DNA from: Colwellia polaris
GTDB lineage: Bacteria > Pseudomonadota > Gammaproteobacteria > Enterobacterales > Alteromonadaceae
Assembly: GCF_002104515.1 (NCBI RefSeq)
Contig: NZ_NBOE01000001.1
Location: 620,001-684,000 of the forward strand
Reading direction: 5' to 3'
Length of the DNA stretch: 64,000 nt
The translations under genes were made by a program, and so were the position numbers. The notes beneath the pieces were generated by a model, which saw nothing but the letters and a program-made list of their open reading frames with translations, was not told where the DNA came from and ran no database searches. This document shows positions 2,357 to 52,093 of the stretch, piece after piece; position 1 is the stretch's first letter, and the number at the start of each line of letters is the position of its first letter.

Positions 2357-2728
2357 TTAGGCGTATTTAGGGGGACGAAATGGCACCGACATATAGCCTT
2401 TTAGCTCAGGAGAAACTAAGGCGTAGGTAGGAAAATGATCTATTGCTTGTAAAATATTACAAGAAGAATCTGCATTTAAAAACAAGTGACAACAGCAACA
2501 AAAATTACAATTTTCAATTGAACTGTTGCTATTATTTACTTCAAATATATTGGAGGTTTCTGAAGCTTTTAGTGGGGTAGTTGACTCAGTTAGTGATGTG
2601 TTAAAAGAACTTTCTATCAAGTTTATTTCAAGCTCTTCTAGCGAAAAAAACACAGACTGCACCGCGATTAAAATCATTATCACGTATGATATATATGGTT
2701 TAAAATATGATGGGTGCATTAGGTTCAT
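2357..2728 (-). CDS. Small secreted Cys-rich leader protein with RPP tail (CzcI-like)
   Basis: A 123-residue protein with an N-terminal hydrophobic segment, a Ser/Thr/Asn-rich linker, a dense cysteine cluster (one Cys, two residues, then four Cys and a His) and a C-terminal tail with Arg-Pro-Pro. Three other proteins here (6717, 35452, 51680) share this plan: signal segment, metal-ligand cluster, RPP close to the C terminus. The closest known type I can name is CzcI, a small protein encoded ahead of czcCBA. It starts six bases after the methyltransferase stop and is followed by the TolC-like gene. A periplasmic metal-sensing or buffering role is inferred. Confidence 0.7.
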   Translation of the reverse strand: MNLMHPSYFKPYISYVIMILIAVQSVFFSLEELEINLIESSFNTSLTESTTPLKASETSNIFEVNNSNSSIENCNFCCCCHLFLNADSSCNILQAIDHFPTYALVSPELKGYMSVPFRPPKYA

Positions 2729-2734
2729 TGTTAT

Positions 2735-3379
2735 CTAGTTCGCTTCAATCAGTCTGATAGTTCCCAAAGGCGTTGGGACTATGTTTAAATCTGAAACATG
2801 AGTAAACCCTGATTCAACCACCACAGAGGGAATAACTCCATCTACATTATCTTTTGTAGTTTCGAAACCATCTAATAATTGAACGACAAAGAACAATATC
2901 CGTTGAAATATTGAAGTAGGCTTTCCCCAGTCTGCAATTATTAAAGTACCGTCCGGTTTCAGTACCCGACGAATTTCAGTTAATGTCGCGAGCTTAGCTG
3001 AACTGTTTAAGTGGTGAAAAAACAAACTTGAAACTACGATGTCAAAAGAGTTTTCATCAAAAGGCATTTTTTGTCCAAAGCCCTGTCTAAAAGAAATATT
3101 TAGATCTTTGCCTATAACTTTTTTCTGTGAAATATCTAGAGCGGTTTGGTCTGCATCTAAGCCTATTACGGTATGTTTAGGTAATTTTTCAGCTATTAAT
3201 TTTGTGAGCGTTCCTGTTCCACAACCAACATCAAGTAGATTGTTTCCTTTGACGTTGGCAACTTTATCAACAATCAGCTTTTTAAAAAATGCTTCTCTCG
3301 TGGTGATAGCAACGAGGCTGTCATAAAAACTCGTTAACCAATGAAATCGTAGTGGTGGAATGTAGGTATTGTTTTTCAT
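2735..3379 (-). CDS. Class I SAM-dependent methyltransferase
   Basis: A 214-residue methyltransferase of the UbiE/Methyltransf_11 type. The SAM-binding motif DVGCGTG lies at residues 50-56, the acidic residue after strand 2 in GLDAD, and a post-motif LRRVLKPDG-like segment (EIRRVLKPDG) about 80 residues later. There is no signal peptide, so it is cytoplasmic. The next gene starts six bases downstream, so it appears to head the leader-channel-adaptor-pump operon. The substrate is unknown; a metalloid or small-molecule acceptor is possible, but the three conserved cysteines of ArsM are not evident. Confidence 0.85.
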   Translation of the reverse strand: MKNNTYIPPLRFHWLTSFYDSLVAITTREAFFKKLIVDKVANVKGNNLLDVGCGTGTLTKLIAEKLPKHTVIGLDADQTALDISQKKVIGKDLNISFRQGFGQKMPFDENSFDIVVSSLFFHHLNSSAKLATLTEIRRVLKPDGTLIIADWGKPTSIFQRILFFVVQLLDGFETTKDNVDGVIPSVVVESGFTHVSDLNIVPTPLGTIRLIEAN

Positions 3380-3479
3380 AAGTTCATTTACCTTTAGCCG
3401 TTTGAGCCAGACTTAAACTAGCTATACAGGTGTCAATAATGGTTTTAAAATTTAAATAAATGGTCATGATTGATTTCAG

Positions 3480-4379
3480 CTAATACTTTAGCTGTAAGAT
3501 GCGGCGAGCACCGTTTAAAACGACAAGGGCAATTATCAAACCAATCACTAAATCTGGATAACGGCTGCTTGTTACTGTAACTAATAAGCCAGCTAAGATT
3601 ACGCCAATGTTTGCGATAACGTCATTTGCGGAAAAAATCCAACTCGCTTTCATATGAGCGCCGTCTTCTTTATTGCCAAATATTAAAAACAGACAAGCAA
3701 TGTTAGCGATTAGTGCTATTCCACCAAATATCATCATTAAAGATGACATAGGCTCACTACCATAAATAAAGCGTCTTACGACTTCACTCAAAGCACCTAG
3801 CGCTAAAATAATCTGAAGCACACCAGAGATATGTGCCGCTCTAAGTTTCATGCTGATACTTTTACCTACCGCATAAATAGCCAAACCATATACGGCAGCG
3901 TCAGCAAACATATCTAATGAGTCTGCAATAAGGCCAGCAGACTGTGCAATAATCCCAGCAATTATTTCTACAAAAAACATGATCCCGTTAATAGCCAGCA
4001 ACCATTTTAGTGTTGACGCTTCTTTCATCTCATTTTTTTGGGCTAGATCTTTTGCTTTTGCAGCTTCTGTGCTGCAACTTTCTTTAGTTGATGCTAACTC
4101 TGCATCGAGTTTAAGTTGTTGTAACTTTTTTGTTATCTCATCTAAATTTTCATCATGAAAAACTTTGACTAATCGACTAGGAATATCAAATTGCAATCCA
4201 ACAGAAGGCTCAATTGAGTCAAGTGCTAATCTGATCAATCTCTCTTCTGAAGGACAGTCCATTTGAGGCACTTTATATGTACTGACAAACGCGCCACCAT
4301 AGTTATCTAATTGTGTATCAATTTTTACGTCTTCGTTGGTAGGAGATGATTGACACTGACCACTACATTTTTCTGACAT
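3480..4379 (-). CDS. Cation diffusion facilitator with N-terminal HMA-like domain
   Basis: A metal/proton antiporter of the CDF family. The N-terminal part (to about residue 95) has a Cys-rich start and a ferredoxin-like HMA domain with a PQMDCPSEE motif. Then come six membrane segments; TM2 carries ADSLDMFADA (DxxxD) and TM5 carries FSANDV, where the usual His of HxxxD is not present, as in other members of this subgroup. I chose the second Met (4379) because GGA lies nine bases upstream; a start at 4388 would place it directly against the ribosome site. It is transcribed from the MerR-type promoter at 4409-4439. Lead, cadmium or zinc is the likely substrate. Confidence 0.85.
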   Translation of the reverse strand: MSEKCSGQCQSSPTNEDVKIDTQLDNYGGAFVSTYKVPQMDCPSEERLIRLALDSIEPSVGLQFDIPSRLVKVFHDENLDEITKKLQQLKLDAELASTKESCSTEAAKAKDLAQKNEMKEASTLKWLLAINGIMFFVEIIAGIIAQSAGLIADSLDMFADAAVYGLAIYAVGKSISMKLRAAHISGVLQIILALGALSEVVRRFIYGSEPMSSLMMIFGGIALIANIACLFLIFGNKEDGAHMKASWIFSANDVIANIGVILAGLLVTVTSSRYPDLVIGLIIALVVLNGARRILQLKY

Positions 4380-4408
4380 ATTTAACATTCCGTAACAATA
4401 TTTCGTTG

Positions 4409-4439
4409 AGTATAAAATCTATAGCAACTATAGAGTCAA
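4409..4439 (-). promoter_or_regulatory. MerR-family (PbrR/CadR-type) promoter of the CDF gene
   Basis: On the minus strand TTGACT and TATACT are separated by 19 bases, the stretched spacing of MerR-regulated promoters. The spacer holds the dyad CTATAG-TTG-CTATAG. TTGACTCTATAG-type boxes are known from lead and cadmium MerR regulons. The same box recurs at 6580-6610. No matching regulator gene is adjacent. Confidence 0.8.
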
Positions 4440-4597
4440 TAGGTTTTATAATCTTTATTGGTGAGTTTCCGACATTAAGTATTAAGACGATTTAACTCTT
4501 CTAATAACATCCCAGTTTTAAGATTAGCTAGTAAAATAACTGCTCTTAATTAAGTTAGTGGTGATGCTCAATGAATGATTACTAACTACTGTGTAAA

Positions 4598-6716: not shown

Positions 6717-7067
6717 TTGAATCTAAATGTTGTGCTAAAAATGCTCTTAGTCGTTTCGATTGTTTTACAATCGTTAACTGCTGTCGCATCTTCAACATCT
6801 GAGAATCACCAGATTGATATAGAACATCTTCAAACTCAACATGATCATGCCGATGACCGAAATGCCTTAAACGATAATGCAGATGATGATGAGCATAATG
6901 AAAAAGATTGTCATCACTGCGGTAATTGCAGTGGCAGCCACTTATCTTGGATTTTAATCTGTAATTCAAATACCACGGGCAAACTAAACATTATCAATAA
7001 AACACCTTATCAAGTTTCTCAAACCAATACCTACCTTGAAGCGATACTTCGCCCACCCATTTCTTAA
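6717..7067 (+). CDS. Small secreted His/Cys-rich leader protein with RPP tail (CzcI-like)
   Basis: A 116-residue protein with a signal peptide (about 1-24), an Asp/His-rich middle with many His-Asp pairs, a CHHCGNC cluster and a C terminus of LRPPIS. The start is a TTG eight bases after AGG in ACAGGTAA; a downstream ATG (6741) would cut the signal peptide. It belongs to the same family as 2357-2728, 35452-35838 and 51680-52093. It precedes a TolC-adaptor-pump operon on the same strand by 81 bases. A role in sensing or buffering periplasmic metal is inferred from composition and place. Confidence 0.7.
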   Translation: MNLNVVLKMLLVVSIVLQSLTAVASSTSENHQIDIEHLQTQHDHADDRNALNDNADDDEHNEKDCHHCGNCSGSHLSWILICNSNTTGKLNIINKTPYQVSQTNTYLEAILRPPIS

Positions 7068-7148
7068 TTAGATTGAATTTTAATGACCTATTTATCCATG
7101 AAAAGGATAAAGGGTTCGTGTTTATAAATTAAAAAATTAAGAAGTTTT

Positions 7149-26182: not shown

Positions 26183-26208
26183 AAAAACCGATTGCCTCTC
26201 GGTTTTTT
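26183..26208 (+). terminator. Rho-independent terminator after dmeR
   Basis: AAAAACCGA and TCGGTTTTT pair perfectly around a seven-base loop, with a T run in the right arm. The A-rich left arm also lets it work on the minus strand. Confidence 0.85.
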
Positions 26209-26251
26209 GTGTGGCACTATCCTATTACTTAAAAAATGGCGATTGAAATTT

Positions 26252-26641
26252 ATGTTACTCGGTGAATTAGAAAAACAAGTTTTAGAATATCTATGGAAAA
26301 ATCAACCTGCTGATGCCAAGCAGGTGCATAGCTATTTTGAAAAAGACCGAGGCGGATCTCTAAATACCATTCAAAGTACGCTAGAACGCTTGTTTAAAAA
26401 AGATTTGTTAAGTAGGGTAAAAAACGGCCACGCTTATCAATACTTTCCAAAAGTTGCAAGGCAAGAGCTGATAGGTCAGTTGATTAAAAGTATTACTCAT
26501 GATTTTGTTACTGAAGATGAAAATAGTGTTGTTGCTGCTTTCTCTTCTATTTCATCAGATCTAGATGAAAAGCAGCTAGATAAATTGGAAGCAATGATTG
26601 AACAACAACGTCAAAAAATACAGAAGAATTCTGAAAAATGA
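26252..26641 (+). CDS. BlaI/MecI/CopY-family repressor
   Basis: A 129-residue winged-helix repressor of the BlaI/CopY family (ELEKQVLEYLW start, SLNTIQSTLERL recognition helix), with a C-terminal helical dimer part. I chose the ATG at 26252; a TTG upstream at 26192 falls inside the preceding terminator. There is no CopY-type C-terminal Cys hook. Its stop overlaps the M56 peptidase start by four bases, so the two form a BlaI-BlaR1-like pair ahead of a czcCBA-like operon. Confidence 0.88.
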   Translation: MLLGELEKQVLEYLWKNQPADAKQVHSYFEKDRGGSLNTIQSTLERLFKKDLLSRVKNGHAYQYFPKVARQELIGQLIKSITHDFVTEDENSVVAAFSSISSDLDEKQLDKLEAMIEQQRQKIQKNSEK

Positions 26642-27606
26642 TTTATGGCCAATGGGCATTAGTATTTAATTTGCTCACGGTGGGGGTTTTAGCCTTTATC
26701 GTGGCTAACATATTTGTCTCAATTACTTTTTGGTTAGTCAAAAGTAAGTTGCAACACTATGCGGTATCAACTCGTAAATCATTATTATGGTTATTAGTGC
26801 TTGCTCCGTGGCTGATATCTTTATGTGCCACACTCTTTTTTAGTCCACTATTTCAAAACGGTTCAATATTTGTTTGGTTGACAGACCTTGCTCATTGGCA
26901 CCATCCTGATATTTTCTATTTTATGAGCTGGCATAGTGCTAGTTTACTTATTTTTACCAGTTTTACTCTGTATATTTTTATACGAAAAATAACTCTTCTT
27001 TATCGTAATCATCATCAAATTAATTTGTTACGTGTATTAGGGATTGAAAATAGTAAGCAAGTCTATTTCATTGAATCATCTATACCTACAGCATTCACTG
27101 GTGGTGTGTTTAGGCCATCATGCTTTATATCTACGAGTCTTGTCGAGCAAACAACTGCTGATGACATAAAAATAATTATTCAGCATGAGTTAGCTCATGT
27201 TCATTATTTTGATCCATTAAAGAAATGGCTTTTCTCATTTTTCTCAGCTTATTTCGCTAATAATGTTAAACAGTTATTGATTTCCATGATGTCGCTATCT
27301 ATGGAGCAAGCCGCTGATTCTTTTTATGCCGAAAATCAGCAACAATCACATAACGTTGCAAGTACCTTAGTAAAGTTTACTAAATTGGCTGCGAGCTACT
27401 CTATTCATCCACAATATAATAGTGAATTATTTGTTCATTTCTGTCGTCATTCTATTGAACAAAGAGTGCTTCATTTGCTTAGTGATAAACAGTTCAGACC
27501 ATTTCCCACGGGAGGTGTTGTGATTGCAATACCCCTCTTAGTTCTAATTTCAACAACGTCTGTAGATAGCCTACATCACGTTATTGAAACGCTTTTTACT
27601 CATTAA
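26638..27606 (+). CDS. M56-family membrane metallopeptidase (BlaR1-like)
   Basis: A 322-residue membrane protein with three or four helices, the zinc-peptidase motif HELAH (183-187) and the preceding TAFTGGVFRPSCF segment typical of the M56 family. It has no penicillin-binding sensor domain, only a short C-terminal membrane segment. In BlaR1/MecR1 systems the peptidase inactivates the BlaI repressor on a signal. Its place before czc-like genes suggests control of metal efflux, but this is inferred from position. Confidence 0.88.
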   Translation: MIYGQWALVFNLLTVGVLAFIVANIFVSITFWLVKSKLQHYAVSTRKSLLWLLVLAPWLISLCATLFFSPLFQNGSIFVWLTDLAHWHHPDIFYFMSWHSASLLIFTSFTLYIFIRKITLLYRNHHQINLLRVLGIENSKQVYFIESSIPTAFTGGVFRPSCFISTSLVEQTTADDIKIIIQHELAHVHYFDPLKKWLFSFFSAYFANNVKQLLISMMSLSMEQAADSFYAENQQQSHNVASTLVKFTKLAASYSIHPQYNSELFVHFCRHSIEQRVLHLLSDKQFRPFPTGGVVIAIPLLVLISTTSVDSLHHVIETLFTH

Positions 27607-27640
27607 CCGCTAATTAAAATCTTACTCTAAGGTACTGATA

Positions 27641-28993
27641 ATGAATCTTTATTTTAATATATGCTCTTACAAAAAACCGACTGACGGTCGGTTTTTTGTA
27701 AGGATTCGTCGGAATGTTTTATTGGTGCTGATGCCATTCATACCAACAATTGCATTTGCCCAAGAAGTTCCTTTGCAAACGGTTGATTTGCGTTCAGCTA
27801 TTGCACAGACAATAGATATGCATCCTGAGCTAAAATCATTTGCCATTCAAGCCAAGATGTATTCTGGCTATGCTCAACAGGCAGGGGTTCAATCTAGACC
27901 ACAAATTGGTTTTACCATTGAAGATGCTTTAGGTACAGGTGAGCACAGCGGCTTTAAGAGTGCACAATCAACACTTTCTATTTCTTGGTTATTAGATGGT
28001 GGATTGGTACAGAGTAAAATAAAAGCAGCTAAACAATATGGCTCTACAGTCGCTTTAGAGCGTGAAGTTAAAGCTTTGGATTTAGCTGCACAAACGGCAC
28101 GTTACTTTATACAAGTTCTTGTCAATAATGAGCGATTGAAGTTAGCTCAATTTAGTCTTAAGCAAGCGAATAATTCATTTGAAGCAATAAGTAAACGCGT
28201 AAAAGCAGGGAAGTCCTCTTTAGTAGATAAATTAAAGTCTCAGGCTGAGGTAGCTAATCGTGAGTTGATAGTTGAGGATTTAACTCACGAAGTTGATGCA
28301 AGTAAGTACCAATTATTTGCACAATGGGGTGAGCAAATTAAAGGAGTAAATCAAAATAATAGGCATAAGAAAAGTATGATAGTGGGTTCATTATTATCTT
28401 TACCAAGTGTAACCAATTTTGATTCTTTATTTACGAAACTTAGACAAACACCTTCAGTGAATCTTTTTGCAACAAAACAACGAATTGCCCAGTCTGAGAT
28501 AGAGCTTGCACGCATTGAAAGCAAACCATTATGGCAATTTTCAGCAGGCTTACGTCGATATGAAACAACTGATGACTTCGGCTTAGTTGCTGGAATTTCA
28601 ATTCCTTTTGGTGATGGGAATCGAAATGAAGGAAAAATAAAAGCCTTGCGAGCCTCTCAAAGTCAACTAGAAACAGAGTCGTTAGCGTTAGTTCATAAAC
28701 TCAATACTCAGTTATATGTTCTTATCGAACAATTGAAGCATAGCCAACATGTCATTCATGCGGTATCTGACAATATTATTCCTGTTTTGGAGCAAGCTTT
28801 TAAAGAGGCAGAAAAAGCATATAACGTTGGTAAGTATAGCTATACCGAATGGATGAACACCCAGAAAGCCCTACTCAATGCTCAATCTGATTTGATAGCT
28901 GCTTATCAAAATGCACATTTAAACAATATTGAAATTGAACGTTTAACCGGAACGTCCATTTTAACCATTAATAAAGACAAGAAAGAGAAATAA
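27641..28993 (+). CDS. TolC-family outer membrane channel (CzcC-like)
   Basis: A 450-residue channel of the third RND system, paralogous to the protein at 993-2285. The ATG at 27641 has an AAGG site eight bases upstream, but a strong hairpin (27669-27699) lies within codons 10-20. The signal-peptide core (LLVLMPFIPTIAFA) begins only after the hairpin. Either the real start is a later GTG/ATG near 27724-27730, or the hairpin is a transcription attenuator inside the coding region. The adaptor gene begins two bases after the stop. Confidence 0.88.
   Translation: MNLYFNICSYKKPTDGRFFVRIRRNVLLVLMPFIPTIAFAQEVPLQTVDLRSAIAQTIDMHPELKSFAIQAKMYSGYAQQAGVQSRPQIGFTIEDALGTGEHSGFKSAQSTLSISWLLDGGLVQSKIKAAKQYGSTVALEREVKALDLAAQTARYFIQVLVNNERLKLAQFSLKQANNSFEAISKRVKAGKSSLVDKLKSQAEVANRELIVEDLTHEVDASKYQLFAQWGEQIKGVNQNNRHKKSMIVGSLLSLPSVTNFDSLFTKLRQTPSVNLFATKQRIAQSEIELARIESKPLWQFSAGLRRYETTDDFGLVAGISIPFGDGNRNEGKIKALRASQSQLETESLALVHKLNTQLYVLIEQLKHSQHVIHAVSDNIIPVLEQAFKEAEKAYNVGKYSYTEWMNTQKALLNAQSDLIAAYQNAHLNNIEIERLTGTSILTINKDKKEK
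27669..27699 (+). terminator. Terminator-like hairpin at the start of the channel gene
   Basis: A 13-base perfect stem (27669-27681 against 27687-27699) with a five-base TGACG loop, an A run in the left arm and a T run in the right. It has the form of a bidirectional terminator for the BlaI-M56 pair but sits inside the annotated start region of the next gene. Confidence 0.8.
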
Positions 28994-28995
28994 TC

Positions 28996-30231
28996 ATGAA
29001 ACCAACATTTCAAATATTAGCCTTAATAAGCACCGTCTGGCTTGTTAGCATAAGTGCAAGCTTCCCAAGCTTTGCGGTTTCAGAGCCGAAGGTAGAAGAA
29101 GCCGAACCTGAAAAAGGTCCCAACCGTGGACGAATGTTGCGTGATGGTGATTTTGCCATTGAACTCTCAATCTTTGAAACAGGCGTCCCTCCTGAATTTC
29201 GTGTATGGGCATCAACAGACGGAAAAGCAATTGATCCGTCAGAGGTTGACCTTAATGTAAAGTTGACTAGATTGGGTGATGGCATAGACGATATAAATTT
29301 TTACCAAGAAGGCGAATATCTTCGAGGTGACATGGTTATCTATGAACCGCACTCATTTATGGTTTCACTCACTGCAAAATATCAGGGTAAAACCTTCAAC
29401 TGGCAGTATGACAACTTTGAAGGTCGGACAAAAATTGCTGAAGATGTAGCAAAAGCAATGGAAATCTCGACTGAAATTGTTGGTCCATCAACATTTCATG
29501 AAACAGTTCAAGTCTATGGCAAGTTAGTTCTACCTGCTGATGCAACGAGTAATGTTTATGCTCGCTTTGACGGGTTAGTTAAAAAAGTTAATGTAAAGCT
29601 AGGAGAGTCAGTTAAGAAAGGTCAATTACTACTCACGGTTGAAAGTAATGAAAGTCTTCAGTCGTACAAAGTCTTTTCTGCTCAAAATGGAATTGTTAGT
29701 ACCGTTAACGTTACCTCAGGCGAACAATCTAAAGGCCGCTCCCTGCTACAAATTACCAATGATGAAACATTAATTGCCCAGTTAGCTGTTTTTCCAAAAG
29801 ACTTACCAACCGTGCGTCTTGGTGCAAAAACCACGATAACGATTAATGGTGTTGAAGAAAAGCAGGTGAGTACGGTTGAGAGCCGTATTCTAAAAGTCAG
29901 AGATGATCAGGCGAAGCTATTTCGTGTAGTCGTTAATAATGCTGATTCTGCGTTGTCAGAAGGAGCATTTGTTAGTGCCGCGATTGAAATTGGTTCATAC
30001 GATGTACCTATGGCAGTAAAGCGCAGTGGATTACAAAGCTTCCGCGATTTTACTGTTGTATATGCCAAAGTCGGAGATGAATATGAGGTAAGAATGCTTG
30101 AGTTAGGTCGAGCTGTAGGTGAAGAAATTGAAGTGCTAAGTGGTATTTCCTTAGGCACTGAATACGTGACTGAAAATAGTTACATCCTCAAAGCTGATGT
30201 TGAAAAGTCTGGCGCTTCACACGACCATTAA
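28996..30231 (+). CDS. RND efflux periplasmic adaptor (CzcB-like)
   Basis: A 411-residue adaptor with a signal peptide (about 1-28), an extra N-terminal beta domain (about 35-145, GPNRGRMLRDGDFAIELS...), then the lipoyl/barrel core with GESVKKGQLLLTVESNES near residue 205. The extra domain is common in CzcB-family adaptors and is missing from the otherwise similar adaptor at 26-922. It ends in Ser-His-Asp-His. It sits tightly between channel and pump genes (two and three bases). Confidence 0.92.
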   Translation: MKPTFQILALISTVWLVSISASFPSFAVSEPKVEEAEPEKGPNRGRMLRDGDFAIELSIFETGVPPEFRVWASTDGKAIDPSEVDLNVKLTRLGDGIDDINFYQEGEYLRGDMVIYEPHSFMVSLTAKYQGKTFNWQYDNFEGRTKIAEDVAKAMEISTEIVGPSTFHETVQVYGKLVLPADATSNVYARFDGLVKKVNVKLGESVKKGQLLLTVESNESLQSYKVFSAQNGIVSTVNVTSGEQSKGRSLLQITNDETLIAQLAVFPKDLPTVRLGAKTTITINGVEEKQVSTVESRILKVRDDQAKLFRVVVNNADSALSEGAFVSAAIEIGSYDVPMAVKRSGLQSFRDFTVVYAKVGDEYEVRMLELGRAVGEEIEVLSGISLGTEYVTENSYILKADVEKSGASHDH

Positions 30232-30234
30232 GGA

Positions 30235-33200
30235 TTGATTATGCTCGAATATTTACTTAGATTTTCTATCCGTAGAAACTCAATCATTATGCTAGCCGTG
30301 CTTGCGTTAGCAGGTTTGGGTATTTGGAATTTTACCAAGTTACCTATTGATGCTGTACCTGACATAACTAATGTGCAAGTCATGATCAATACGGAAGCTC
30401 CAGGCTATACGCCACTTGAAGTTGAGCAACGGGTTACTTATCCGTTGGAGACTGCGTTAGCTGGCATACCTAACTTAGTGAGTACAAGATCAGTCTCACG
30501 TTATGGGCTGTCACAAGTGACAGCAATCTTTAGCGATGACACGGATATTTATTTTGCAAGACAGCTTGTAAATGAACGATTAGTTTCAGCTAAATCTGAT
30601 TTGCCGACTGGTTTAGAGCCTGAACTTGGCCCAATTGCAACCGGGTTAGGTGAGATATTCATGTTTACTGTTGATGCTGAGCCTGAGGCACTTAATGATA
30701 AAGGTGAACGAATCACGGCTACGGACCTAAGAACTGTACATGACTGGATTATTCGCCCTCAGTTAATGCAAGTGCAAGGCGTAGTTGAAGTTAACCCTAT
30801 TGGTGGTTTTAAGCGTGAAATATTGATCGCTTTTGAGCCTAAAAAATTATTAGCTTTTGGTGTTACTCAACAAGATGTTATCCAAGCAATTGAAAATAAT
30901 AATGATAATAAAGGTGCTGGTTTTATAGAAAAAAATGGTGCTCAGTGGCTGCTTCGTATTCCAGGGCAAGCAAAAACGATAAGTGATCTATCTACAATCC
31001 CTGTTAAAACGACTGACGGTAGCGTGATCCGTATATCTGACGTTGCCAATGTAAAAGAAGGGAAAGAGTTAAGAACAGGTGCAGCGACACAAAACGGTAG
31101 AGAAGTGGTGATGAGCACGGTCTTTATGCTCATCGGGGAAAATAGCCAAAAAGTCGCTAAAGCAGTTGGGTTAAGACTTGAAGAAATAAAACGAAGTTTA
31201 CCGACAGGTATCACTGTTACTGCTGTTTATGATCGAACTAAGTTAGTTGAAAAAACCCTCGATACGGTAAAAACAAATCTGTTAGAAGGCGCATTGCTCG
31301 TTATTGTAGTGCTTTTCCTTCTACTCGGTAATATGCGAGCAGCATTACTTACGGCTGCTGTTATTCCTTTTGCCATGTTAATGACTATCACTGGCATGGT
31401 ACAAACAAGAGTGAGTGCAAACCTAATGAGTTTAGGAGCACTTGATTTTGGCTTGCTCGTTGATGGTGCAATTATTATCGTTGAGAATTGCATGAGACGA
31501 CTGAGTGCTGCCTCTTCAAATGGGCGTTCAATGGAGTTAAATGAACGTTTATCACTGGTATTTTATGCGACTAGGGAAGTTATTCGTCCAGCACTATTCG
31601 GTGTCTTCATAATTACAGCGGTGTATTTACCTATTTTTGCACTTACAGGTGTTGAAGGGAAAATGTTCCATCCTATGGCCATTACTGTCGTGATTGCTTT
31701 GTGTTGTGCAATGCTTCTATCTATCACTTTTGTACCTGCTGCAATCGCTATTTTATTTAAAGGCCCAGTGAAAGAAAAAGAAAATATTATCATGAAATCA
31801 TCACTTGCGGTGTATCGTCCTACGTTAACTTTTGCGCTTAAAATTCGTTGGTTTGTCGTGATGTTAGCTGTTGCACTTGTTGGTTATGCAGGATTTTCCG
31901 TAAATAAATTAGGGAGTGAGTTTGTACCTAACTTAGATGAAGGTGATATTGCTATGCATGCCTTACGTATTCCAGGTACATCACTAACACAAGCCGTTGC
32001 ACTTCAAAAAGTTTTAGAAGAAAAAATTACGCAGATGCCTGAAGTAGAACGTGTATTTGCAAAAATTGGTACAGCAGATGTTGCCACTGATGCTGTTCCT
32101 CCAAGTGTTGCTGATAATTTTATTATATTAAAACCACGTAGTGAATGGCCTGAACCTACAAAAGCTAAAGCCCAATTTGTAGAAGAGTTAGCAGCAGTAG
32201 TAGAACCCATTCCCGGTAACAGATATGAGTTCCTTCAACCAATACAAATGCGTTTTAATGAGCTACTTGCAGGTGTAAGAGCTGAACTTGCCATTAAAGT
32301 ATTTGGTGATGACTTTGAAACACTAACGGCATTAGGTAAAAGCATTAACACGGCCATTGCTAACGTTGAAGGAATTGCTGATGTTCAAGTTGAACAAACA
32401 ACAGGTTTGCCGATGCTTACGATCAATCCTAATCACGAGCAATTAGCAAAATATGGCGTTAGCATTAAAACCCTACAAGATCAGCTTGCTACGGCCTTAG
32501 GTGGAACAAGCGCTGGTAAATTTTATGAAGGTGATCGAAGAGCAGACATTGTTGTTCGTCTTCCTGAAAACCTTAGAAGTGATGTTGATTCGTTGGCTCA
32601 CTTACCCATACAAATACAAGCTGACCAGTATGTACCTTTGCAAGAAGTTGCTGAACTTGAATTAGTAGAAGGGGCAAACCAGGTTAATAGGGAAAATGGT
32701 AAACGTAGAGTTGTTGTTACCGCCAATGTTAGGGGAAGAGATTTAGGTTCTTTCGTTAAAGATATTCAAGCTTCAATAGAGAGTTCAGTTGAAGTGCCTT
32801 CAGGGTACTGGATTGAATATGGTGGCACTTATCAGAAGCTTCAATCTGCTTCTAAAAGGCTATCAATTGTCGTGCCTATTACACTGATCATGATCATTGG
32901 CTTATTATTCTTAGCACTTGGCTCTTTCAAAGATTCAATGATCATCTTTACGGGGGTTCCTTTAGCGTTGACTGGCGGTATTTTCGCTTTATTAATACGG
33001 GATATTCCCTTTTCAATTTCGGCAGCCGTTGGCTTTATCGCATTGTCAGGCATAGCAATATTAAATGGTTTAGTTATGGTGTCCTTTATCAGAGAACTTC
33101 GACGAGAAGGTGTTGCATTAGATACCGCCATTATTGATGGTGCGCTGACTAGACTTCGACCCGTATTAACTACAGCGCTGGTTGCATCGCTAGGCTTTGT

Positions 33201-33387
33201 ACCAATGGCGCTTAACACAGGAATTGGCTCAGAAGTGCAACGCCCACTTGCTACAGTGGTCATTGGTGGGATTATATCATCAACAATTTTAACGCTATTT
33301 GTGCTTCCTGCTTTATATCGTTTATTACATAGCCACAAAGAAATCTTTACTAAAACACCCCACACAAAGGAAACTGTTAATGTTTAA
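30235..33387 (+). CDS. czcA: CzcA-type heavy-metal RND pump
   Basis: A 1050-residue RND pump with the motif GALDFGLLVDGAIIIVEN in helix 4. DFG-x3-DGA-x3-VEN is the signature of divalent-metal pumps such as CzcA. The copper-binding methionines of CusA are absent. It likely exports Co, Zn, Cd or Ni from the periplasm through the channel at 27641. It uses an ATG at 30241 or the in-frame start six bases upstream; both are close to AAGGA. Its last bases overlap the start of the HupE-like gene. Confidence 0.94.
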   Translation: MIMLEYLLRFSIRRNSIIMLAVLALAGLGIWNFTKLPIDAVPDITNVQVMINTEAPGYTPLEVEQRVTYPLETALAGIPNLVSTRSVSRYGLSQVTAIFSDDTDIYFARQLVNERLVSAKSDLPTGLEPELGPIATGLGEIFMFTVDAEPEALNDKGERITATDLRTVHDWIIRPQLMQVQGVVEVNPIGGFKREILIAFEPKKLLAFGVTQQDVIQAIENNNDNKGAGFIEKNGAQWLLRIPGQAKTISDLSTIPVKTTDGSVIRISDVANVKEGKELRTGAATQNGREVVMSTVFMLIGENSQKVAKAVGLRLEEIKRSLPTGITVTAVYDRTKLVEKTLDTVKTNLLEGALLVIVVLFLLLGNMRAALLTAAVIPFAMLMTITGMVQTRVSANLMSLGALDFGLLVDGAIIIVENCMRRLSAASSNGRSMELNERLSLVFYATREVIRPALFGVFIITAVYLPIFALTGVEGKMFHPMAITVVIALCCAMLLSITFVPAAIAILFKGPVKEKENIIMKSSLAVYRPTLTFALKIRWFVVMLAVALVGYAGFSVNKLGSEFVPNLDEGDIAMHALRIPGTSLTQAVALQKVLEEKITQMPEVERVFAKIGTADVATDAVPPSVADNFIILKPRSEWPEPTKAKAQFVEELAAVVEPIPGNRYEFLQPIQMRFNELLAGVRAELAIKVFGDDFETLTALGKSINTAIANVEGIADVQVEQTTGLPMLTINPNHEQLAKYGVSIKTLQDQLATALGGTSAGKFYEGDRRADIVVRLPENLRSDVDSLAHLPIQIQADQYVPLQEVAELELVEGANQVNRENGKRRVVVTANVRGRDLGSFVKDIQASIESSVEVPSGYWIEYGGTYQKLQSASKRLSIVVPITLIMIIGLLFLALGSFKDSMIIFTGVPLALTGGIFALLIRDIPFSISAAVGFIALSGIAILNGLVMVSFIRELRREGVALDTAIIDGALTRLRPVLTTALVASLGFVPMALNTGIGSEVQRPLATVVIGGIISSTILTLFVLPALYRLLHSHKEIFTKTPHTKETVNV

Positions 33388-35451: not shown

Positions 35452-35838
35452 GTGAATTCTAATTTCTCTAAAACATTAATGGTACTGCTAGTCTGTTTGA
35501 CCTTTGTTGGTCAAGCGGTTGCGTCTACTGTTATGTCTTATCATATGATGAGTATGAAGGGAGATAGTGTGCAAGGACAAATGCAAAATATGTCAATGAT
35601 GGGCCATAGTGACCATTCAATGATGAGTCATTCTTCTGATGACTCAGATGAAGCAAAAGAGGACTGTTGTGTTAAAAGTTGTAGTTGTTTTACTGGAGGT
35701 TGCTCAAGTATCGCTACACTAATGAAAGACACAGATGACAGTCTATTTATTGATTTATCATCAAAAATATTATCATATTCAAACTTGGCTCAAAGTCAAT
35801 CATCATCATCTCTATATAGACCTCCAATACTAAGCTAA
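35452..35838 (+). CDS. Small secreted Met/His/Cys-rich leader protein with RPP tail
   Basis: A 128-residue protein starting with GTG. It has a signal peptide (about 1-24), a Met/His-rich segment (SYHMMSMKG, MGHSDHSMMSHS), a Cys cluster (CCxKSCSCFTGGC) and a C terminus of YRPPILS. The Met richness fits copper or silver and agrees with the cus/cop genes downstream. It is the third of four RPP-tailed proteins here. A hairpin conserved with the one after 52093 begins at its stop codon. Confidence 0.75.
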   Translation: MNSNFSKTLMVLLVCLTFVGQAVASTVMSYHMMSMKGDSVQGQMQNMSMMGHSDHSMMSHSSDDSDEAKEDCCVKSCSCFTGGCSSIATLMKDTDDSLFIDLSSKILSYSNLAQSQSSSSLYRPPILS

Positions 35839-35893
35839 ATACAGAATAATTGTGCCTAAAATTTGGCTCACTTATATGAAAATTATCTGTATT
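35838..35893 (+). terminator. Conserved hairpin after the leader gene
   Basis: AATACAGAATAATT (35838-35851) pairs with AATTATCTGTATT (35881-35893) with one bulged base. The loop contains GTGCC and GGCTCACTTA, which also appear in the hairpin at 52094-52134. It may attenuate transcription between the leader gene and the downstream operon. Confidence 0.5.
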
Positions 35894-35986
35894 AGGCTTT
35901 TTGATCTCTGCGTTTAAGTATTTTTAAGCAAAATCAAGAATAACCTAATCAATTCAAATATTAATTGATATCCCTTTGGGGGGGTT

Positions 35987-42938: not shown

Positions 42939-42941
42939 AGC

Positions 42942-45549: not shown

Positions 45550-45891
45550 ATGAAAACTAACTTTATTAAAACTGTAGGCAAAATCGCTTTGATATTAGTA
45601 CCAGCAATTACTTTATCAATGAATGCATCCGCTCATGATCCGAAAATGCATGCAAAAAAAGCAGAAAAAGCTGATTGTAGCAAAATGGATCATAGCAAGA
45701 TGGATATGAAAGACCCTGTAGCAATTGCCATGATGAAAAAGTGCATGAACCAATCTAAAGCGTCAACCGATGATATGGACCATAGCAAAATGAACGATAT
45801 GGACCAAAGCAAGATGAAAGATATGGATCACAGTAAAATGAAGAAAACGGGTGACAAAAAAGTCAATAAAGATAATCACGAAAATCACTAA
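45550..45891 (+). CDS. Met/His-rich periplasmic copper-binding protein
   Basis: A 113-residue secreted protein: signal peptide (1-28), then repeated MDHSKM and MDQSKM blocks and an HENH end. This composition suits weak Cu(I)/Cu(II) or silver binding in the periplasm. It is not a known folded domain. It lies between the reductase gene and the multicopper oxidase. A strong hairpin follows, so it may end the cus transcript. Confidence 0.8.
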   Translation: MKTNFIKTVGKIALILVPAITLSMNASAHDPKMHAKKAEKADCSKMDHSKMDMKDPVAIAMMKKCMNQSKASTDDMDHSKMNDMDQSKMKDMDHSKMKKTGDKKVNKDNHENH

Positions 45892-45958: not shown

Positions 45959-47692
45959 ATGAGTGAAGATAAATTAGCTTTTAAATCAAGACGGATGTTT
46001 GTGAAAGGTGTCGCTGCAACAGCTTTTTTGTCAACTTTACCTTTAAGCGCCTTTTATACTTGGGCTGACTCAAACAATGCCGAATTAAGTGGGAGGAATA
46101 TACATTTAAATATAGGTGAAAAAGAAGTCAATATTACAGGGCAACAAGCTGCTGCAACGCTGGTGAATGGTTTGCTACCAGGTCCCGTCTTAAGATTAAA
46201 GGAAGGTGATGATGTGACTATTATGGTCACTAATAATTTGTCAGAAATGACTACGATCCATTGGCATGGGATCATATTAGAACCAGAGATGGATGGTGTT
46301 CCTGGTATCAGTTTTCCCGGAATAGAACCAGGTGAAACATTCACTTATAAATTCAAATTAAAACAACATGGCACCTATTGGTATCATGCGCATACCTTGG
46401 CTGAACAAACTGGCGTATATGGCGCTCTAGTGATTGAGCCTAAAGACTCTCTCGAAAATGAACAAGTAGATAAAGACTTTCCTATTGTGCTGAGTGACTG
46501 GACGGATGAAAACCCCGTTGACGTATTCCTGAACCTTAAAAAAATGGGTGGTTATTATAATTATCAGCAACTCACTGCGGTTGATTTTATTGATGATGTG
46601 GCCAATGTTGGTTTCGCTGCGGCAATGAATAAGCGAGTACCATGGAATAAAGCAAGAATGAGTCCCACTGATTTTAGTGATATAACCGCTTCAACTTATA
46701 CCTATTTAGTCAATGGAGCCTCACCTAATGCAAATTGGCATGGAGAGGTTAAGCAGGGAGATAAAGTTAGATTAAGGTTTATAGGTGCGGCTACATCTAC
46801 TTTTTTTGATGTGCGTATTCCCGGATTAAAACTCAAAATTGTGGCGACCGACGGGCAAAAAGTACACCCCGTATTAGTGGATGAATTTAGGGTTGGTCCA
46901 GGGGAAACCTATGATGCAATTGTGGAAATTAAAGACGCTAGTGCGTATTCAATATTTGCACAATCAATGGACAGATCTGGCTTTGCCAGTGCAACATTAT
47001 CTGCAAACAGAAGTGATACAGCCATTAGGCCAGAATTAGACGAACCAGCATTATTAACAATGTTAGATATGATGGGCGACATGAATGGAAATATCGGCAC
47101 AATGTCTGATATGAAAGACATGCCCATGGATGGCAAAACCATGAGTAAGCCATCATTAAAAACAGCAAGTAAAGAAGTTCGACATGCATCCACAGAATAT
47201 GGCCCAGGGGTTGATATGCGCGTTAATATGCCCCGTACTAACCTTGATGACCCTGGTCCAGGACTCAGAGACACTGGACGAAAAGCATTAACTTATGCTG
47301 ATTTAAAAAGTGTGCATCTACCAGAAGACACCCGAATTCCTAGCCGTGAAATTGAAATGCATTTAACGGGCAATATGGAGCGCTTTATTTGGTCGATTGA
47401 TGGTTTGAAACTCAATGAAGCAAAGCCTCTTCATTTTCCCTTAGGTGAAAGAATTAGGGTTATCTTACATAACGACAGCAATATGCTACATCCAATGCAT
47501 TTACATGGTATGTGGTCTGATTTGGAGTCACCCGAAGGGGAATTTCAAGTAAGAAAACACACCATAACAGTACAGCCTGCTCAACGAGTGAGTTTTTTAG
47601 TCACTGTTGACGCCCCCGGTCGGTGGGCGTTTCATTGTCATTTACTTTACCATATGGCTGCTGGCATGTTTAGGGAGGTAGTCGTCGCATGA
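45959..47692 (+). CDS. copA: Copper-resistance multicopper oxidase CopA
   Basis: A 577-residue three-domain multicopper oxidase exported by the Tat route (SRRMFVK near residues 11-17). Copper-site motifs are intact: HWHG (101-104), WYHAH (to 145), HPMHLHG, and HCHLLYHMAAGM (from 559). A Met-rich insert (MLDMMGDMNGN...MSDMKDMPMDGKTM) in domain 3 marks the CopA type that oxidises Cu(I) and stores copper. An AGGAG site precedes it. The stop overlaps the copB start by four bases. Confidence 0.95.
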   Translation: MSEDKLAFKSRRMFVKGVAATAFLSTLPLSAFYTWADSNNAELSGRNIHLNIGEKEVNITGQQAAATLVNGLLPGPVLRLKEGDDVTIMVTNNLSEMTTIHWHGIILEPEMDGVPGISFPGIEPGETFTYKFKLKQHGTYWYHAHTLAEQTGVYGALVIEPKDSLENEQVDKDFPIVLSDWTDENPVDVFLNLKKMGGYYNYQQLTAVDFIDDVANVGFAAAMNKRVPWNKARMSPTDFSDITASTYTYLVNGASPNANWHGEVKQGDKVRLRFIGAATSTFFDVRIPGLKLKIVATDGQKVHPVLVDEFRVGPGETYDAIVEIKDASAYSIFAQSMDRSGFASATLSANRSDTAIRPELDEPALLTMLDMMGDMNGNIGTMSDMKDMPMDGKTMSKPSLKTASKEVRHASTEYGPGVDMRVNMPRTNLDDPGPGLRDTGRKALTYADLKSVHLPEDTRIPSREIEMHLTGNMERFIWSIDGLKLNEAKPLHFPLGERIRVILHNDSNMLHPMHLHGMWSDLESPEGEFQVRKHTITVQPAQRVSFLVTVDAPGRWAFHCHLLYHMAAGMFREVVVA

Positions 47693-48834
47693 AAACATTA
47701 ATATCATTAAAAATACAAATCCTAGCATTGGCTAGTGTGCTAGTTATTGCTAGTAACACACAAGCAGAAGTGCCGTCAATGGATAAAATGGGCACATCGT
47801 CGCCAACAACTGTATTCGAAAATTTAAAGCAGGATACCTGTAAAGATAAAGTTCGAGACACCAAAGCCATGGGTGACATGAAGGGCATGGGTGACACGAA
47901 AGGCATGGGTGACACGAAAGCCATGGATGACATGAAGGGCATGGGTGACATGAAGGGCATGGGTAACATGAAGGACATGGGTGACACGAAAGCCATGGAT
48001 GACATGAAAGGCATGGGTGACATGAAGGACATGGGTGACACGAAAGCCATGGGTGACATGAAGGGGATGGGTGATATGAAAGCTATGCCACCTGCTCTAG
48101 GAGGAGATGCACCCAAAAATGCTCGGGACCCATTCGCCAATTCTGGTGGCTATGAATACAGGGGAATGTCGGGATGGGAAGACACCGATGAGTGGAAAGT
48201 AGGTAAATTTATTGCTGACCAATTTGAATATAGAAAGGGTGATGCGACAAATTTTTATCGATGGGACACTCAATCATGGTATGGCACCGATTATGACAAG
48301 TTTTGGGCAAAATTTGAAGGTAATGAAAATAGTAGTAAAGATGAAGGGGAACTAGAGCTACAAATGCTTTACAGCCATTCGGTTGCAGCTTTTTGGGATG
48401 CTCAAATTGGACTTCGTTATGACCGGGCACATAACCCCAATGGAACTGAATCCCGGTATTTTGGAGTGTTAGGTTTTCAAGGTTTAGCACCGTATTGGTT
48501 TGAGGTGGAGCCTGCTTTGTTTATTAGTAATAAAGGTGATATCTCGGGTCGGCTTGTAGCAACTTATGATTTACTGATCACGCAAAAACTGATATTTCAA
48601 CCTCGGCTTGAAGTCAATATTTCTGCAAATGACTTGCCGCAATTTAACATAGGCAAGGGGATTAATGATCTTCAACTCGATTTACGCTTACGTTATGAAA
48701 TTAACCGTGAATTCGCCCCATATATTGGTCTAGCTTGGTTTAGTAAATATGGCAAAACCGCTGATTATTTTCGTACAGCAGGCGAAGCGACAGTTGATAC
48801 TCAACTCGTTGCAGGTGTGAGATTTTGGTTTTAA
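47689..48834 (+). CDS. copB: Copper-resistance outer membrane protein CopB
   Basis: A 381-residue outer-membrane protein: signal peptide (1-26), a Met/Asp/Lys repeat region (about 60-131) and a C-terminal CopB beta-barrel ending in Phe. The repeat consists of 12 hexapeptides of the form x-Met-Gly/Asp-Asp/Asn-Met/Thr-Lys. In Pseudomonas, CopB works with CopA to hold copper at the outer membrane. It is translationally coupled to copA. Confidence 0.94.
   Translation: MKTLISLKIQILALASVLVIASNTQAEVPSMDKMGTSSPTTVFENLKQDTCKDKVRDTKAMGDMKGMGDTKGMGDTKAMDDMKGMGDMKGMGNMKDMGDTKAMDDMKGMGDMKDMGDTKAMGDMKGMGDMKAMPPALGGDAPKNARDPFANSGGYEYRGMSGWEDTDEWKVGKFIADQFEYRKGDATNFYRWDTQSWYGTDYDKFWAKFEGNENSSKDEGELELQMLYSHSVAAFWDAQIGLRYDRAHNPNGTESRYFGVLGFQGLAPYWFEVEPALFISNKGDISGRLVATYDLLITQKLIFQPRLEVNISANDLPQFNIGKGINDLQLDLRLRYEINREFAPYIGLAWFSKYGKTADYFRTAGEATVDTQLVAGVRFWF
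47866..48081 (+). repeat. 18-bp tandem repeat (12 units) in copB
   Basis: Twelve in-frame 18-base units with a consensus like GCATGGGTGACATGAAGG encode the Met-rich repeat. Variants (ATG/ACG, GGT/GAT) are interleaved, suggesting repeated duplication of multi-unit blocks. The open minus-strand frame across it is a by-product of the repeat. Confidence 0.9.
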
Positions 48835-48872: not shown

Positions 48873-48896
48873 CCTCTAGATTGATCAATCTAGAGG
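48873..48896. repeat. 24-bp perfect palindrome after copB
   Basis: CCTCTAGATTGATCAATCTAGAGG is fully self-complementary and lies between copB and the cytochrome gene, 25 bases before the latter's start. No T run follows. It may terminate weakly, slow transcription or bind a dimeric regulator. Confidence 0.75.
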
Positions 48897-48920
48897 AGAC
48901 TTCACTAAGAGAGAACAAAA

Positions 48921-49454: not shown

Positions 49455-49479
49455 AAAACGGATAAAAGAGAATTATTAT

Positions 49480-49965: not shown

Positions 49966-49999
49966 CGTAAATTCAATCATTATAAAAAAGGTTTAAAAA

Positions 50000-50503: not shown

Positions 50504-50597
50504 TCGGTATGTATTTCACCTCAAAGAAATTGATGCAATTAATTATTACTTTTTAGTGGTTTTATTTTCTTTAAAAATTTAAATAGTGTCAAAGTTT

Positions 50598-50635
50598 ATA
50601 GATATGATTTAAATAACAATCATATCTATATTTTT
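50598..50635 (+). terminator. Rho-independent terminator after the NTF2-like pair
   Basis: A perfect 12-base stem (50598-50609 against 50618-50629) with an eight-base loop and an ATTTTT tail. It ends only 33 bases before the formyltransferase gene, leaving little room for a separate promoter. Confidence 0.8.
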
Positions 50636-50667
50636 CAGGCGTTTTGATTTAACAATAAAAGTAGCTT

Positions 50668-51486
50668 ATGAAAATTGTTTACTTAGGGAATAATTTATTT
50701 TCCTCATGCTTAAAATATTTGCTGGAAGAAGGTCATCAAATACTGAGAGTGTATAAAAATAGCTCTACACATGACTCATCTATAATAGATAGGTTATGTG
50801 AAAATAATTGCATTCCTTTGCATAGCCACAAGCCTAGCTTAAGTGAACTAAATCAATTGATTTCACAAGGAACCGAGATGTTCATAGTTGCAGAATATTC
50901 TTATTTAGTCCCTGTTACAAAGGTAAAATATGCAATTAATATACACCCAACATTATTACCTGAAGGTAGAGGTCCAACCCCATTACCTTACTTAATAAGA
51001 GCGCCTGAATATTCAGGTGTGACTATACATAAAATTAGTGAAAACTTTGATTCTGGAGACATAATATTACAGTCCCAAGTACCACAATCAACAGATGAAA
51101 GTTTAACCACTTTAATGATAAAGATGCACATTGAGTCAGTAAAGTTACTGAGGATTTTTTTTGAGAATATTGATGAGTATTATAAGTCTGCCAAACCTCA
51201 AATTGAGTATTCATATTGGTCAAAAATTGATGTATCCAAGAGGGTTTTGGATTGGAACTCACCAATTAATGATATCAAAAATCAAATGAGGTGCTTTGGT
51301 CATCTAGGGCTAATTGTAAAGTTAGATCAGGAATTATGGGTTACTTCTCATCTAGAAATTATAGATTATAAACATAATTTAATACCTGGATATGTAGCTT
51401 TTGAAGATGACAGTTTATTGGCTGTTAATGCTTTAGATGGGATCATATGTATACATAAAAAATCTATATTTTCGATGCCTATGTGA
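50668..51486 (+). CDS. Formyltransferase-family protein
   Basis: A 272-residue protein with the formyl-transfer fold. NIHPTLLPEGRG carries the catalytic Asn91 and His93, and FDSGDI carries Asp128, so the triad of methionyl-tRNA and sugar formyltransferases is complete. It is shorter than Fmt and its C-terminal domain is reduced. It is probably not the housekeeping Fmt; a sugar or amino-acid formyltransferase is more likely. It stands alone between two terminators with no evident link to metal resistance. Confidence 0.82.
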   Translation: MKIVYLGNNLFSSCLKYLLEEGHQILRVYKNSSTHDSSIIDRLCENNCIPLHSHKPSLSELNQLISQGTEMFIVAEYSYLVPVTKVKYAINIHPTLLPEGRGPTPLPYLIRAPEYSGVTIHKISENFDSGDIILQSQVPQSTDESLTTLMIKMHIESVKLLRIFFENIDEYYKSAKPQIEYSYWSKIDVSKRVLDWNSPINDIKNQMRCFGHLGLIVKLDQELWVTSHLEIIDYKHNLIPGYVAFEDDSLLAVNALDGIICIHKKSIFSMPM

Positions 51487-51586
51487 TGAGAACATCATAA
51501 TCGATAGGGTCTGCATGATATTTTAAATAGTATATTGTAAGAATAAAATGGACATAAACGAGCAATCAAAATAATGACTTTGTGCT

Positions 51587-51625
51587 AAAAACCTTGATTT
51601 AAAGTTGATTTCAATCAAGGTTTTT
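51587..51625 (+). terminator. Rho-independent terminator after the formyltransferase gene
   Basis: AAAAACCTTGATT (51587-51599) pairs perfectly with AATCAAGGTTTTT (51613-51625), with a T run in the right arm. Confidence 0.9.
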
Positions 51626-51679
51626 ATTTTAGAAACAATATAATATTAGTATTGGAGTTTTTAAAGGGTTACTAATTTA

Positions 51680-52093
51680 ATGTTATTTCGGTTGAATTGG
51701 CTATTTTTAATTATCATATATTTGTCTGTTAACGGGCAAGTGTTTGCTAAAGCTATTCATATATGTCCCGAAATGGCGATGACTTCTTCTGCATTATATA
51801 CCTCTACTACAAGAGTAAAAATTCATGACCATGATCAAAAAAATGATCATCATGGCAACAGTGAACAAATAAATAAAACCCATAATGAACATGAATCAGC
51901 AGCAATGGATGATTGTAAGTGCGTAGATTGTGATTGTGTGCAAAATATTACCGGACAAACAAATTCATCACTTTTGCAAGATTCAAAGATAACAGACTAT
52001 TTCCCTTTTCTCTCAAAAGTACTCGCTAATTTAAATCGACATCTTATATCCCAACCAAATTCCAATCCATATCGACCTCCTACAACAAGCTAA
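51680..52093 (+). CDS. Small secreted His/Cys-rich leader protein with RPP tail
   Basis: A 137-residue protein: signal peptide (1-24), a His/Asp-rich middle (HDHDQKNDHHGN, HNEHES), a CKCVDCDC cluster and a C terminus of YRPPTTS. It is the fourth member of the RPP family here. Unlike the others it precedes a porin-like protein and a cytochrome, not a TolC gene. A hairpin like that at 35838 follows the stop. Confidence 0.72.
   Translation: MLFRLNWLFLIIIYLSVNGQVFAKAIHICPEMAMTSSALYTSTTRVKIHDHDQKNDHHGNSEQINKTHNEHESAAMDDCKCVDCDCVQNITGQTNSSLLQDSKITDYFPFLSKVLANLNRHLISQPNSNPYRPPTTS

Follow-up and report, generated by a model that had tools for sequence, protein, structure and literature searches.

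Background

In the literature compared, a worked-out mechanism is available for only two proteins of the kind considered here, CruR of Bordetella pertussis and CutF of Rhodobacter capsulatus, and these two act with opposite signs and through different outputs. The current work compares them with four small genes, called sensors 1 to 4 after their presumed role, in a stretch of 64,000 nucleotides (nt) of the Colwellia polaris genome (contig NZ_NBOE01000001.1, positions 620,001 to 684,000; the whole stretch is called the window below). The family described here has a C-terminal Arg-Pro-Pro (RPP) tail, a ruler-like spacing between a Cys cluster and this tail, RNA complementarity of the tail codons and, in some of its genes, a hairpin and a motif in fixed register behind the tail. 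The four proteins are most probably nascent-chain metal sensors of the CutF/CopL kind, in which a stall on RPP would act on the RNA. What is said of published systems refers to the available excerpts of PMC9426467, PMC9973294, PMC12992588, PMC10951233, PMC8456105, PMC9291695, PMC11711091, PMC7858274 and PMC6336406.

In CutF, copper extends a stalling-like step, and this step frees the ribosome-binding site (RBS) of the next gene from a stem (PMC9973294). Like the sensors, CutF is small and exported, lies upstream of metal genes and carries a Cys motif some 45 residues before a C-terminal Pro motif; unlike them, it ends in GPPPRL and not in YRPPI, and its next gene is an oxidase. CopL, SilD and CusD are among the published CutF-like proteins, which often stand before genes of the outer-membrane channel family OEP, and CzcI is said there to have no Pro motif (PMC9973294).

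CruR, a DUF2946 protein, shares with the sensors a Cys motif, control of metal genes in cis, a near-identical spacing and an Arg/Pro arrest motif that lies three residues from the C-terminus. Arrest at its RAPP motif was seen by toeprinting, and copper is proposed to relieve it (PMC12992588). About 45 residues separate the Cys motif from the Pro motif in both CruR and CutF (PMC9426467, PMC9973294), and in CruR this spacing has a bearing on control (PMC9426467). CruR differs from the sensors in its RAPP motif, against [YF]RPP, in its dependence on Rho (PMC9426467), and in that copper would relieve the arrest and switch uptake off. For CopL of Xanthomonas, after which the family NF033807 is named, no mechanism beyond a requirement in cis was found in the literature compared.

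Arrest peptides of the SecM/VemP type and those with RAPP also resemble the sensors, being secreted nascent chains with an arrest motif near the C-terminus and a controlled gene downstream; these monitor export or insertion, whereas the presumed input of the sensors is metal. The his, trp and leu leader-peptide attenuators share with them a pause in the leader and a choice of terminator made by the leading ribosome. The input of these attenuators is amino-acid supply, and that of the sensors would be a nascent metal-binding protein.

Results and discussion

The RPP-tailed proteins and their family

The four open reading frames and two of the putative arrest sites, the latter read from the sequence, are as follows.

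2357..2728, minus strand: sensor 1, Cys cluster NCNFCCCCH, tail VPFRPPKYA, preceding OEP, adaptor and RND genes
2369..2377, minus strand: Arg-Pro-Pro codons of sensor 1, putative arrest site
6717..7067, plus strand: sensor 2, cluster DCHHCGNC, tail ILRPPIS, before Czc-type OEP, adaptor and RND genes
35452..35838, plus strand: sensor 3, Met/His-rich, cluster CCVKSCSC, tail LYRPPILS, before DUF411 and Cus-type OEP, adaptor and RND genes
35818..35826, plus strand: Arg-Pro-Pro codons of sensor 3
51680..52093, plus strand: sensor 4, His-rich, cluster CKCVDCDC, tail PYRPPTTS, before porin and cytochrome c genes

The translations bear out the plan given in a first-pass annotation of this DNA, namely a hydrophobic N-terminus, a variable ligand-bearing middle, a Cys cluster and an RPP tail. 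That annotation placed RPP within 3-6 residues of the end; it is indeed near the end, with just 2-3 residues between PP and the stop (FRPPKYA, LRPPIS, YRPPILS and YRPPTTS in sensors 1 to 4). Signal segments were judged by eye, and sensor 1 has no clear cleavage site; its cluster, formerly described as Cys only, is Cys-rich and contains one His as well. The start codons of sensor 2 (TTG, 6717) and sensor 3 (GTG, 35452) are uncertain. In terms of the published CutF-like filter (PMC9973294), the proteins are 116-137 residues long (limit 150), all four have PP within the last 15 residues, and the next gene follows on the same strand after 71, 81, 148 and 203 nt (limit 1000 nt). The tails, RPP without Ala, depart from the CXXC plus RAPP combination of the CruR type, and their core is [YFL]RPP instead of RAPP or RGPP.

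Sensor 3 matches CopL_fam (NCBIfam NF033807) above its cut-off of 40 (41.2 bits), and the match extends to the tail; sensors 4 and 2 match nearly the full model below the cut-off (33.7 and 21.2 bits), and sensor 1 has no match. DUF2946 (PF11162) gives 16.1 and 15.5 bits for two sensors, under its gathering threshold of 23.7, and no score for the other two. CzcI (NF045614), previously named as the nearest type, scores for sensor 2 only, at 15.7 bits against a cut-off of 100, and gives way to the higher-scoring CopL_fam.

When the CopL model was run over 98 genomes, that of C. polaris included, it gave 89 rows in 56 genomes, above the cut-off in 10. After removal of one row with an in-frame stop and one of 57 residues, the remaining 87 and sensor 1 made a set of 88 members, from which 64 representatives less than 60% identical to each other were taken. 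At E 0.01 CopL_fam matches 61 of these 64, a count that is not independent because most representatives were fetched with this model, and CzcI matches 2; DUF2946 reaches 2. A profile of the family built without the window rows recovers sensors 3, 4 and 2 (E 3e-36, 1e-20 and 6e-10). The paralogy claimed for all four therefore stands for these three, and sensor 1, 12-26% identical to them in the alignment, has L138 (40%) and L139 (27%) as its sole links to the family; L139, with a His/Cys cluster and the tail SLYRPPIA, was reached through the homologues of sensor 1 itself. Taken together, the four proteins appear to belong to the CopL/CutF-like family or to border on it. A profile of the 64 representatives lists six members in this genome (E up to 10, the six being part of the profile), the two additional ones lying before a second Cus-type OEP gene (L039) and before a TonB receptor gene (L060).

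Tail and fixed spacing

[RK]PP ends 84 of the 88 members and RPPI 80, and 2-4 residues follow PP in 87. The L069 sensor has ten residues past PP, its usual stop position being a sense codon. Because the CopL model itself contains the tail, 369 genomes of the class were searched with a tail-blind profile that stops 12 residues short of the Arg. Its 20 matches outside the training set comprised 17 with [RK]PP, two with HPP and one low-complexity false match. The tail exceeds chance in that only 2 of 293 distinct open reading frames of at least 200 codons, from the loci and the window, have [RK]PP in the last 10 residues. Those two (L060:5794-6399 and L078:5744-6349) encode a 201-residue hydrophobic protein downstream of a TonB receptor gene, with the tail GYRPPTK or GFRPPTR. 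The RPPI codons vary synonymously (five codons for Arg, four for each Pro and three for Ile), which indicates that selection acts on the peptide.

In the 64 representatives the Arg follows the first cluster Cys at a nearly constant distance (mean 50.0, median 51, standard deviation 2.2 residues), and the N-terminal part is variable, the distance from Met1 to the first Cys having a standard deviation of 14.6. Sensors 1 to 4 have 44, 47, 51 and 53 residues, and 19 members found with the tail-blind profile a median of 51 (standard deviation 4.0). Among 150 genomes of the phylum DUF2946 gave 19 matches, 16 of which could be parsed, two in wrong frames; in the other 14 proteins the residue just ahead of the final PP comes 48-54 residues after the first cluster Cys. 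Such a fixed distance is what a nascent-chain sensor requires.

Genes downstream

According to BLAST labels, the next gene of the 88 members is DUF411 in 36, OEP in 26, adaptor in 6, porin in 5, multicopper oxidase in 2 and P-type ATPase in 1; 12 are unlabelled. The next gene thus resembles a metal-cluster gene of the window in 76 of 88, at a median gap of 107 nt, with doubtful labels in L026 and L086, where the gap exceeds 500 nt. Ten of the 12 unlabelled genes are 71-100% identical to the TonB receptor of L060, and those of L042 and L068 are of other kinds, neither metal-type nor TonB. The L042 sensor has a CQCVDCDC-type cluster, and its next gene encodes a 571-residue protein unlike the metal genes of the window. 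In L070, near a porin-type sensor, a second sensor-like frame starting at base 4613 of the plus strand ends in LHLFKPPIHI. In Escherichia coli K-12 no gene is annotated between cusR and cusC.

In the window itself the arrangement described earlier, three sensors before OEP, adaptor and RND genes and one before porin and cytochrome c, is confirmed by Pfam, which identifies the gene behind sensors 1 and 2 as OEP, that behind sensor 3 as DUF411 and those behind sensor 4 as porin and cytochrome c; adaptors and RND pumps were assigned by eye, among them the adaptor after sensor 1 and its 1042-residue RND-sized frame, which is located outside the window. The expectation that such proteins come first in metal operons holds in so far as the next gene is mostly of the metal type. 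Sensor 1 stands ahead of its own pump genes, yet is not strictly first in its run: it starts 6 bases past the stop of a methyltransferase-like gene (by eye) on the same strand, which is preceded by a cation-efflux gene (PF01545).

Pairing of tail codons with the next gene

The bases that a ribosome stalled on RPP would cover were tested for duplex formation with the RBS of the next gene. The tails of 61 members form better duplexes with their own RBS than swapped tails do (-11.56 against -9.80; p=5e-5, the floor of 20,000 permutations), and surpass synonymous recodings (p=3e-4, n=61) and other segments of the same gene (p=0.009). With starts scored by their Shine-Dalgarno sequence, the swap test again gave p=5e-5, with 62 members and equally with the 17 independent ones from the tail-blind search, which gave p=0.0055 in the recoding test. 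The pairing is at its highest in the stretch from the Arg codon to the stop codon. These comparisons indicate that the bases of the tail codons matter beyond the peptide they encode. In the window the arms lie as follows.

2380..2387, minus strand: 5' arm, sensor 1, codons directly before RPP, able to pair with the region of the OEP start codon
2278..2285, minus strand: 3' arm, sensor 1, region of the OEP start codon
7059..7069, plus strand: 5' arm, sensor 2, the Ile, Ser and stop codons that follow RPP and the next 2 nt, complementary to bases immediately before the start at 7149
7135..7145, plus strand: 3' arm, sensor 2, over the OEP ribosome-binding region

For sensor 1 the partner of the tail is the region of the OEP start codon (swap rank 0.0), and the stem is conserved, by eye, in five of six aligned relatives and absent from L138. 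The tail of sensor 2 pairs with the RBS (rank 0.05) and that of L060 with RBS and start (rank 0.10); L039 shows no notable pairing with its RBS. In the TonB group the codons after RPP form a stem with the start region in 9 of 10 cases, L069 keeping the pairing through a C-to-T/G-to-A exchange; the failure of L083 is probably due to the start codon chosen.

Terminator-like hairpin of Cus-type genes

Behind sensor 3 the last codon and the stop codon are part of a hairpin.

35833..35902, plus strand: terminator-like hairpin of sensor 3, with a T-run to 35902
35833-35844, plus strand: hairpin 5' arm AGCTAAATACAG, last codon, stop and 6 nt
35887-35898, plus strand: hairpin 3' arm CTGTATTAGGCT

In the outer stem of Cus-type genes, AGCUAAAUACAG (last codon, stop and next bases) pairs with CUGUAUUAGGCU, and a T-run follows. 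In 17 sequences 92.1% of the cells pair, against 28-44% when the arms are slid, and RNAalifold recovers 9 of 21 pairs, all in the outer stem. A covariance model of the RNA only, blind to the protein, was searched against 395 genomes of the bacterial family and found 37 places in 35 of them, each directly after RPPI codons: 17 training sequences, three already known after sensors and 17 new ones, some of them near-copies of the window (L155). An intact RPP-tailed frame precedes 16 of the new places. At the other (L180) the sensor frame is broken by in-frame stops, and it still ends in YRPPI and keeps the RNA element. Rfam at its gathering threshold has no match in the window. A simple terminator scan did not list the hairpin of sensor 3, whose loop is longer than the scan allows, and listed three overlapping sites just before or over the DUF411 start.

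Motif and register past the stop

A conserved motif, ACAGNATNANTGNGNC, is found just past the stop (at least 9 of 11 positions) in 49 of 88 members, against 6 of 1760 shuffled sequences; with the 19 tail-blind members added it is present in 52 of 107, three of the 19 carrying it. In the window it reaches at least 10 of 11 positions twice, after sensors 3 and 4.

35841..35856, plus strand: post-stop motif ACAGAATAATTGTGCC, sensor 3, fitting the consensus pause, with G-10 at 35844, Y-1 at 35853 and G+1 at 35854; Y-1 lies 32 nt downstream of the first Pro codon, counted from its first base
52095..52110, plus strand: post-stop motif ACAGGATAAGTGTGCC, sensor 4, with Y-1 at 52107, 31 nt downstream of the first Pro codon by the same count

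All 52 carriers have 31 or 32 nt from the first Pro codon to position 13 of the motif. The register also holds in three carriers with 2 or 4 residues past PP, in which the distance to the stop shifts; 8 of 57 matches between -300 and +199 were off register. The motif fits G-10 Y-1 G+1, the consensus pause of RNA polymerase (PMC9291695), and position 13, on which the search placed no condition, is a pyrimidine (C or T) in 52 of 52. In arrested CruR the P site holds the third RAPP residue (PMC12992588); were the first Pro codon placed likewise, 28-29 nt would remain to Y-1, which is the collision spacing of ribosome and polymerase (PMC11711091), counting conventions for the two possibly differing by a few bases. 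Among the classes of downstream gene, the share of carriers is 32 of 36 for DUF411, 13 of 26 for OEP, 3 of 5 for porin and 1 of 6 for adaptor; the motif is absent from the 12 unlabelled (10 of them TonB), two multicopper-oxidase and one ATPase cases and, by eye, from DUF2946 genes. No stem with a T-run was found after the motif of sensor 4. Neither a pause register nor a stop-codon hairpin was seen in the CutF description compared (PMC9973294), and no RPP pause register or stop-codon hairpin is mentioned in the titles and abstract openings covered, which take in few subscription papers or preprints.

Proposed mechanism

By analogy with CruR and CutF, the sensors would stall, bind metal and regulate. 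The Cys/His cluster would emerge about 51 residues before RPP is decoded and could then bind metal outside the ribosome or in the translocon, and bound metal would alter the duration of a stall on RPP, which ends 2-3 codons short of the stop. In sensors 1 and 2 the stalled ribosome may open the stem that hides the start codon or RBS of the next gene. In sensor 3, of the Cus type, it would cover the base of the hairpin formed by the last codon and stop, so that transcription continues, and in sensors 3 and 4 a probable polymerase pause 31-32 nt past the first Pro codon would hold the polymerase for the lead ribosome. For efflux genes the expected sign is that metal prolongs the stall and the genes are on; for the TonB-receptor paralogue it may be reversed. 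The finished sensor protein is probably short-lived. What is new is the RNA wiring of a known principle, that is, the tail-RBS pairing, the pause register and the stop-codon hairpin. On the further proposal that the stalled ribosome is hard-wired to the polymerase, with RPP set 31-32 nt from the pause, about where the two machines come closest, the last codon and stop serving as a terminator arm, metal deciding on transcription and the paralogues differing in RNA output (RBS stem or paused attenuator), our judgement is evenly divided.

The following points weigh against this scheme. The core is RPP, neither RAPP nor RGPP; none of the literature compared puts Y-R-P-P-I to the test, and the Pro tail of CutF by itself gave no stall in a reporter. 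Sensor 1 was missed by the family profile built without the window rows. The starts of next genes were picked by simple rules; individual members reached 0.05 in the recoding test in 13 of 61 and 6 of 17 cases only, sensor 2 alone gave 0.165, without significance, and the tails of sensors 3 and 4 pair no better than swapped ones (ranks 0.73 and 0.62). C-rich Pro codons feed part of the main pairing peak, and a second, smaller peak lies at -132 to -128. For the hairpin, covariation is weak (RNAalifold term -0.28), 24 of 500 shuffles matched the double-change pairs in a larger, model-fitted set, and folding z-scores of single sequences are only -1.2 to -2.9. About half of the members have no post-stop motif (it is present in 0 of 10 TonB cases and in 3 of 19 tail-blind members from more distant genomes), and two of the three cases of unusual tail length are close kin (L029, L040).

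Alternative explanations

It had been proposed that the tail docks to the adjacent TolC or adaptor, and secreted metal chaperones or scavengers with such a tail would account for the signal-like N-termini, the metal ligands and the neighbouring pumps; docking, with a chaperone role, was also the first suggestion of the CutF authors for the Pro-rich end (PMC8456105). The identical tail, however, precedes unrelated partners, TonB receptors, porins and DUF411 genes among them. A docking tag is thus unlikely, the downstream partner being too variable, though the association with metal operons holds. The constant distance from Cys to tail, with the rest free, and the RNA-level signals in the tail codons also speak against it, and so do the roles of the CruR and CutF tails in translation control, the failure to detect either as a stable protein and the function of cutF only in cis. 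The AlphaFold model of sensor 3, mostly unfolded past the N-terminal helix (mean predicted local distance difference test score 63.3, predicted template modelling score 0.33), counts weakly against a folded chaperone, given its low confidence. This explanation is very improbable, and the ribosome is the more likely shared partner of the tail.

Control of the CruR type only, in which arrest guards against Rho-dependent termination and the RNA structures are incidental, is improbable too: the action of CruR through Rho and the long gaps after sensors 3 and 4 (148 and 203 nt) favour it, but it leaves aside the conserved terminator-like hairpin with T-run and fixed register after Cus-type genes and the family-wide significance of tail-RBS pairing. 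A less improbable alternative is that the conserved post-stop sequence serves as a site for protein binding or as a structural element of the RNA instead of a polymerase pause. Its conservation beyond the pause consensus (ACAG...CYAAATTT) and its place inside a hairpin arm in Cus-type genes make this a possibility of some weight, though we doubt it in view of the fit to G-10 Y-1 G+1 near the 28-29 nt collision spacing and of a distance that keeps to the Pro codons even where, in the three carriers with 2 or 4 residues past PP, the stop lies elsewhere.

Other features of the island

Identical (100%) copies of sensor 1 occur in another species and another genus (compare L127, L128 and L155), and the tail and RNA element of sensor 3 are unchanged in a further genus; these identities suggest that parts of the island were recently transferred. 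Plasmid searches with the DNA and the protein of sensor 1 and with the protein of sensor 3 gave no matches. A further RND operon at 27641-33387 has no RPP sensor and is preceded by genes for a BlaI-type repressor and an M56 peptidase (26192-33387 in all). Met-rich repeats of the MDHSKM and MGDMKGMGD types occur in two copper-cluster proteins of the window, at 45550-45891 and 47689-48834.

Implications

Six paralogues with different ligands and different RNA wiring in one genome form a natural comparison. If the pause register is real, it would make visible in the sequence a coupling of ribosome and polymerase that serves gene control, and the members of the efflux type (CopL/Cus) would gain a testable attenuation mechanism.

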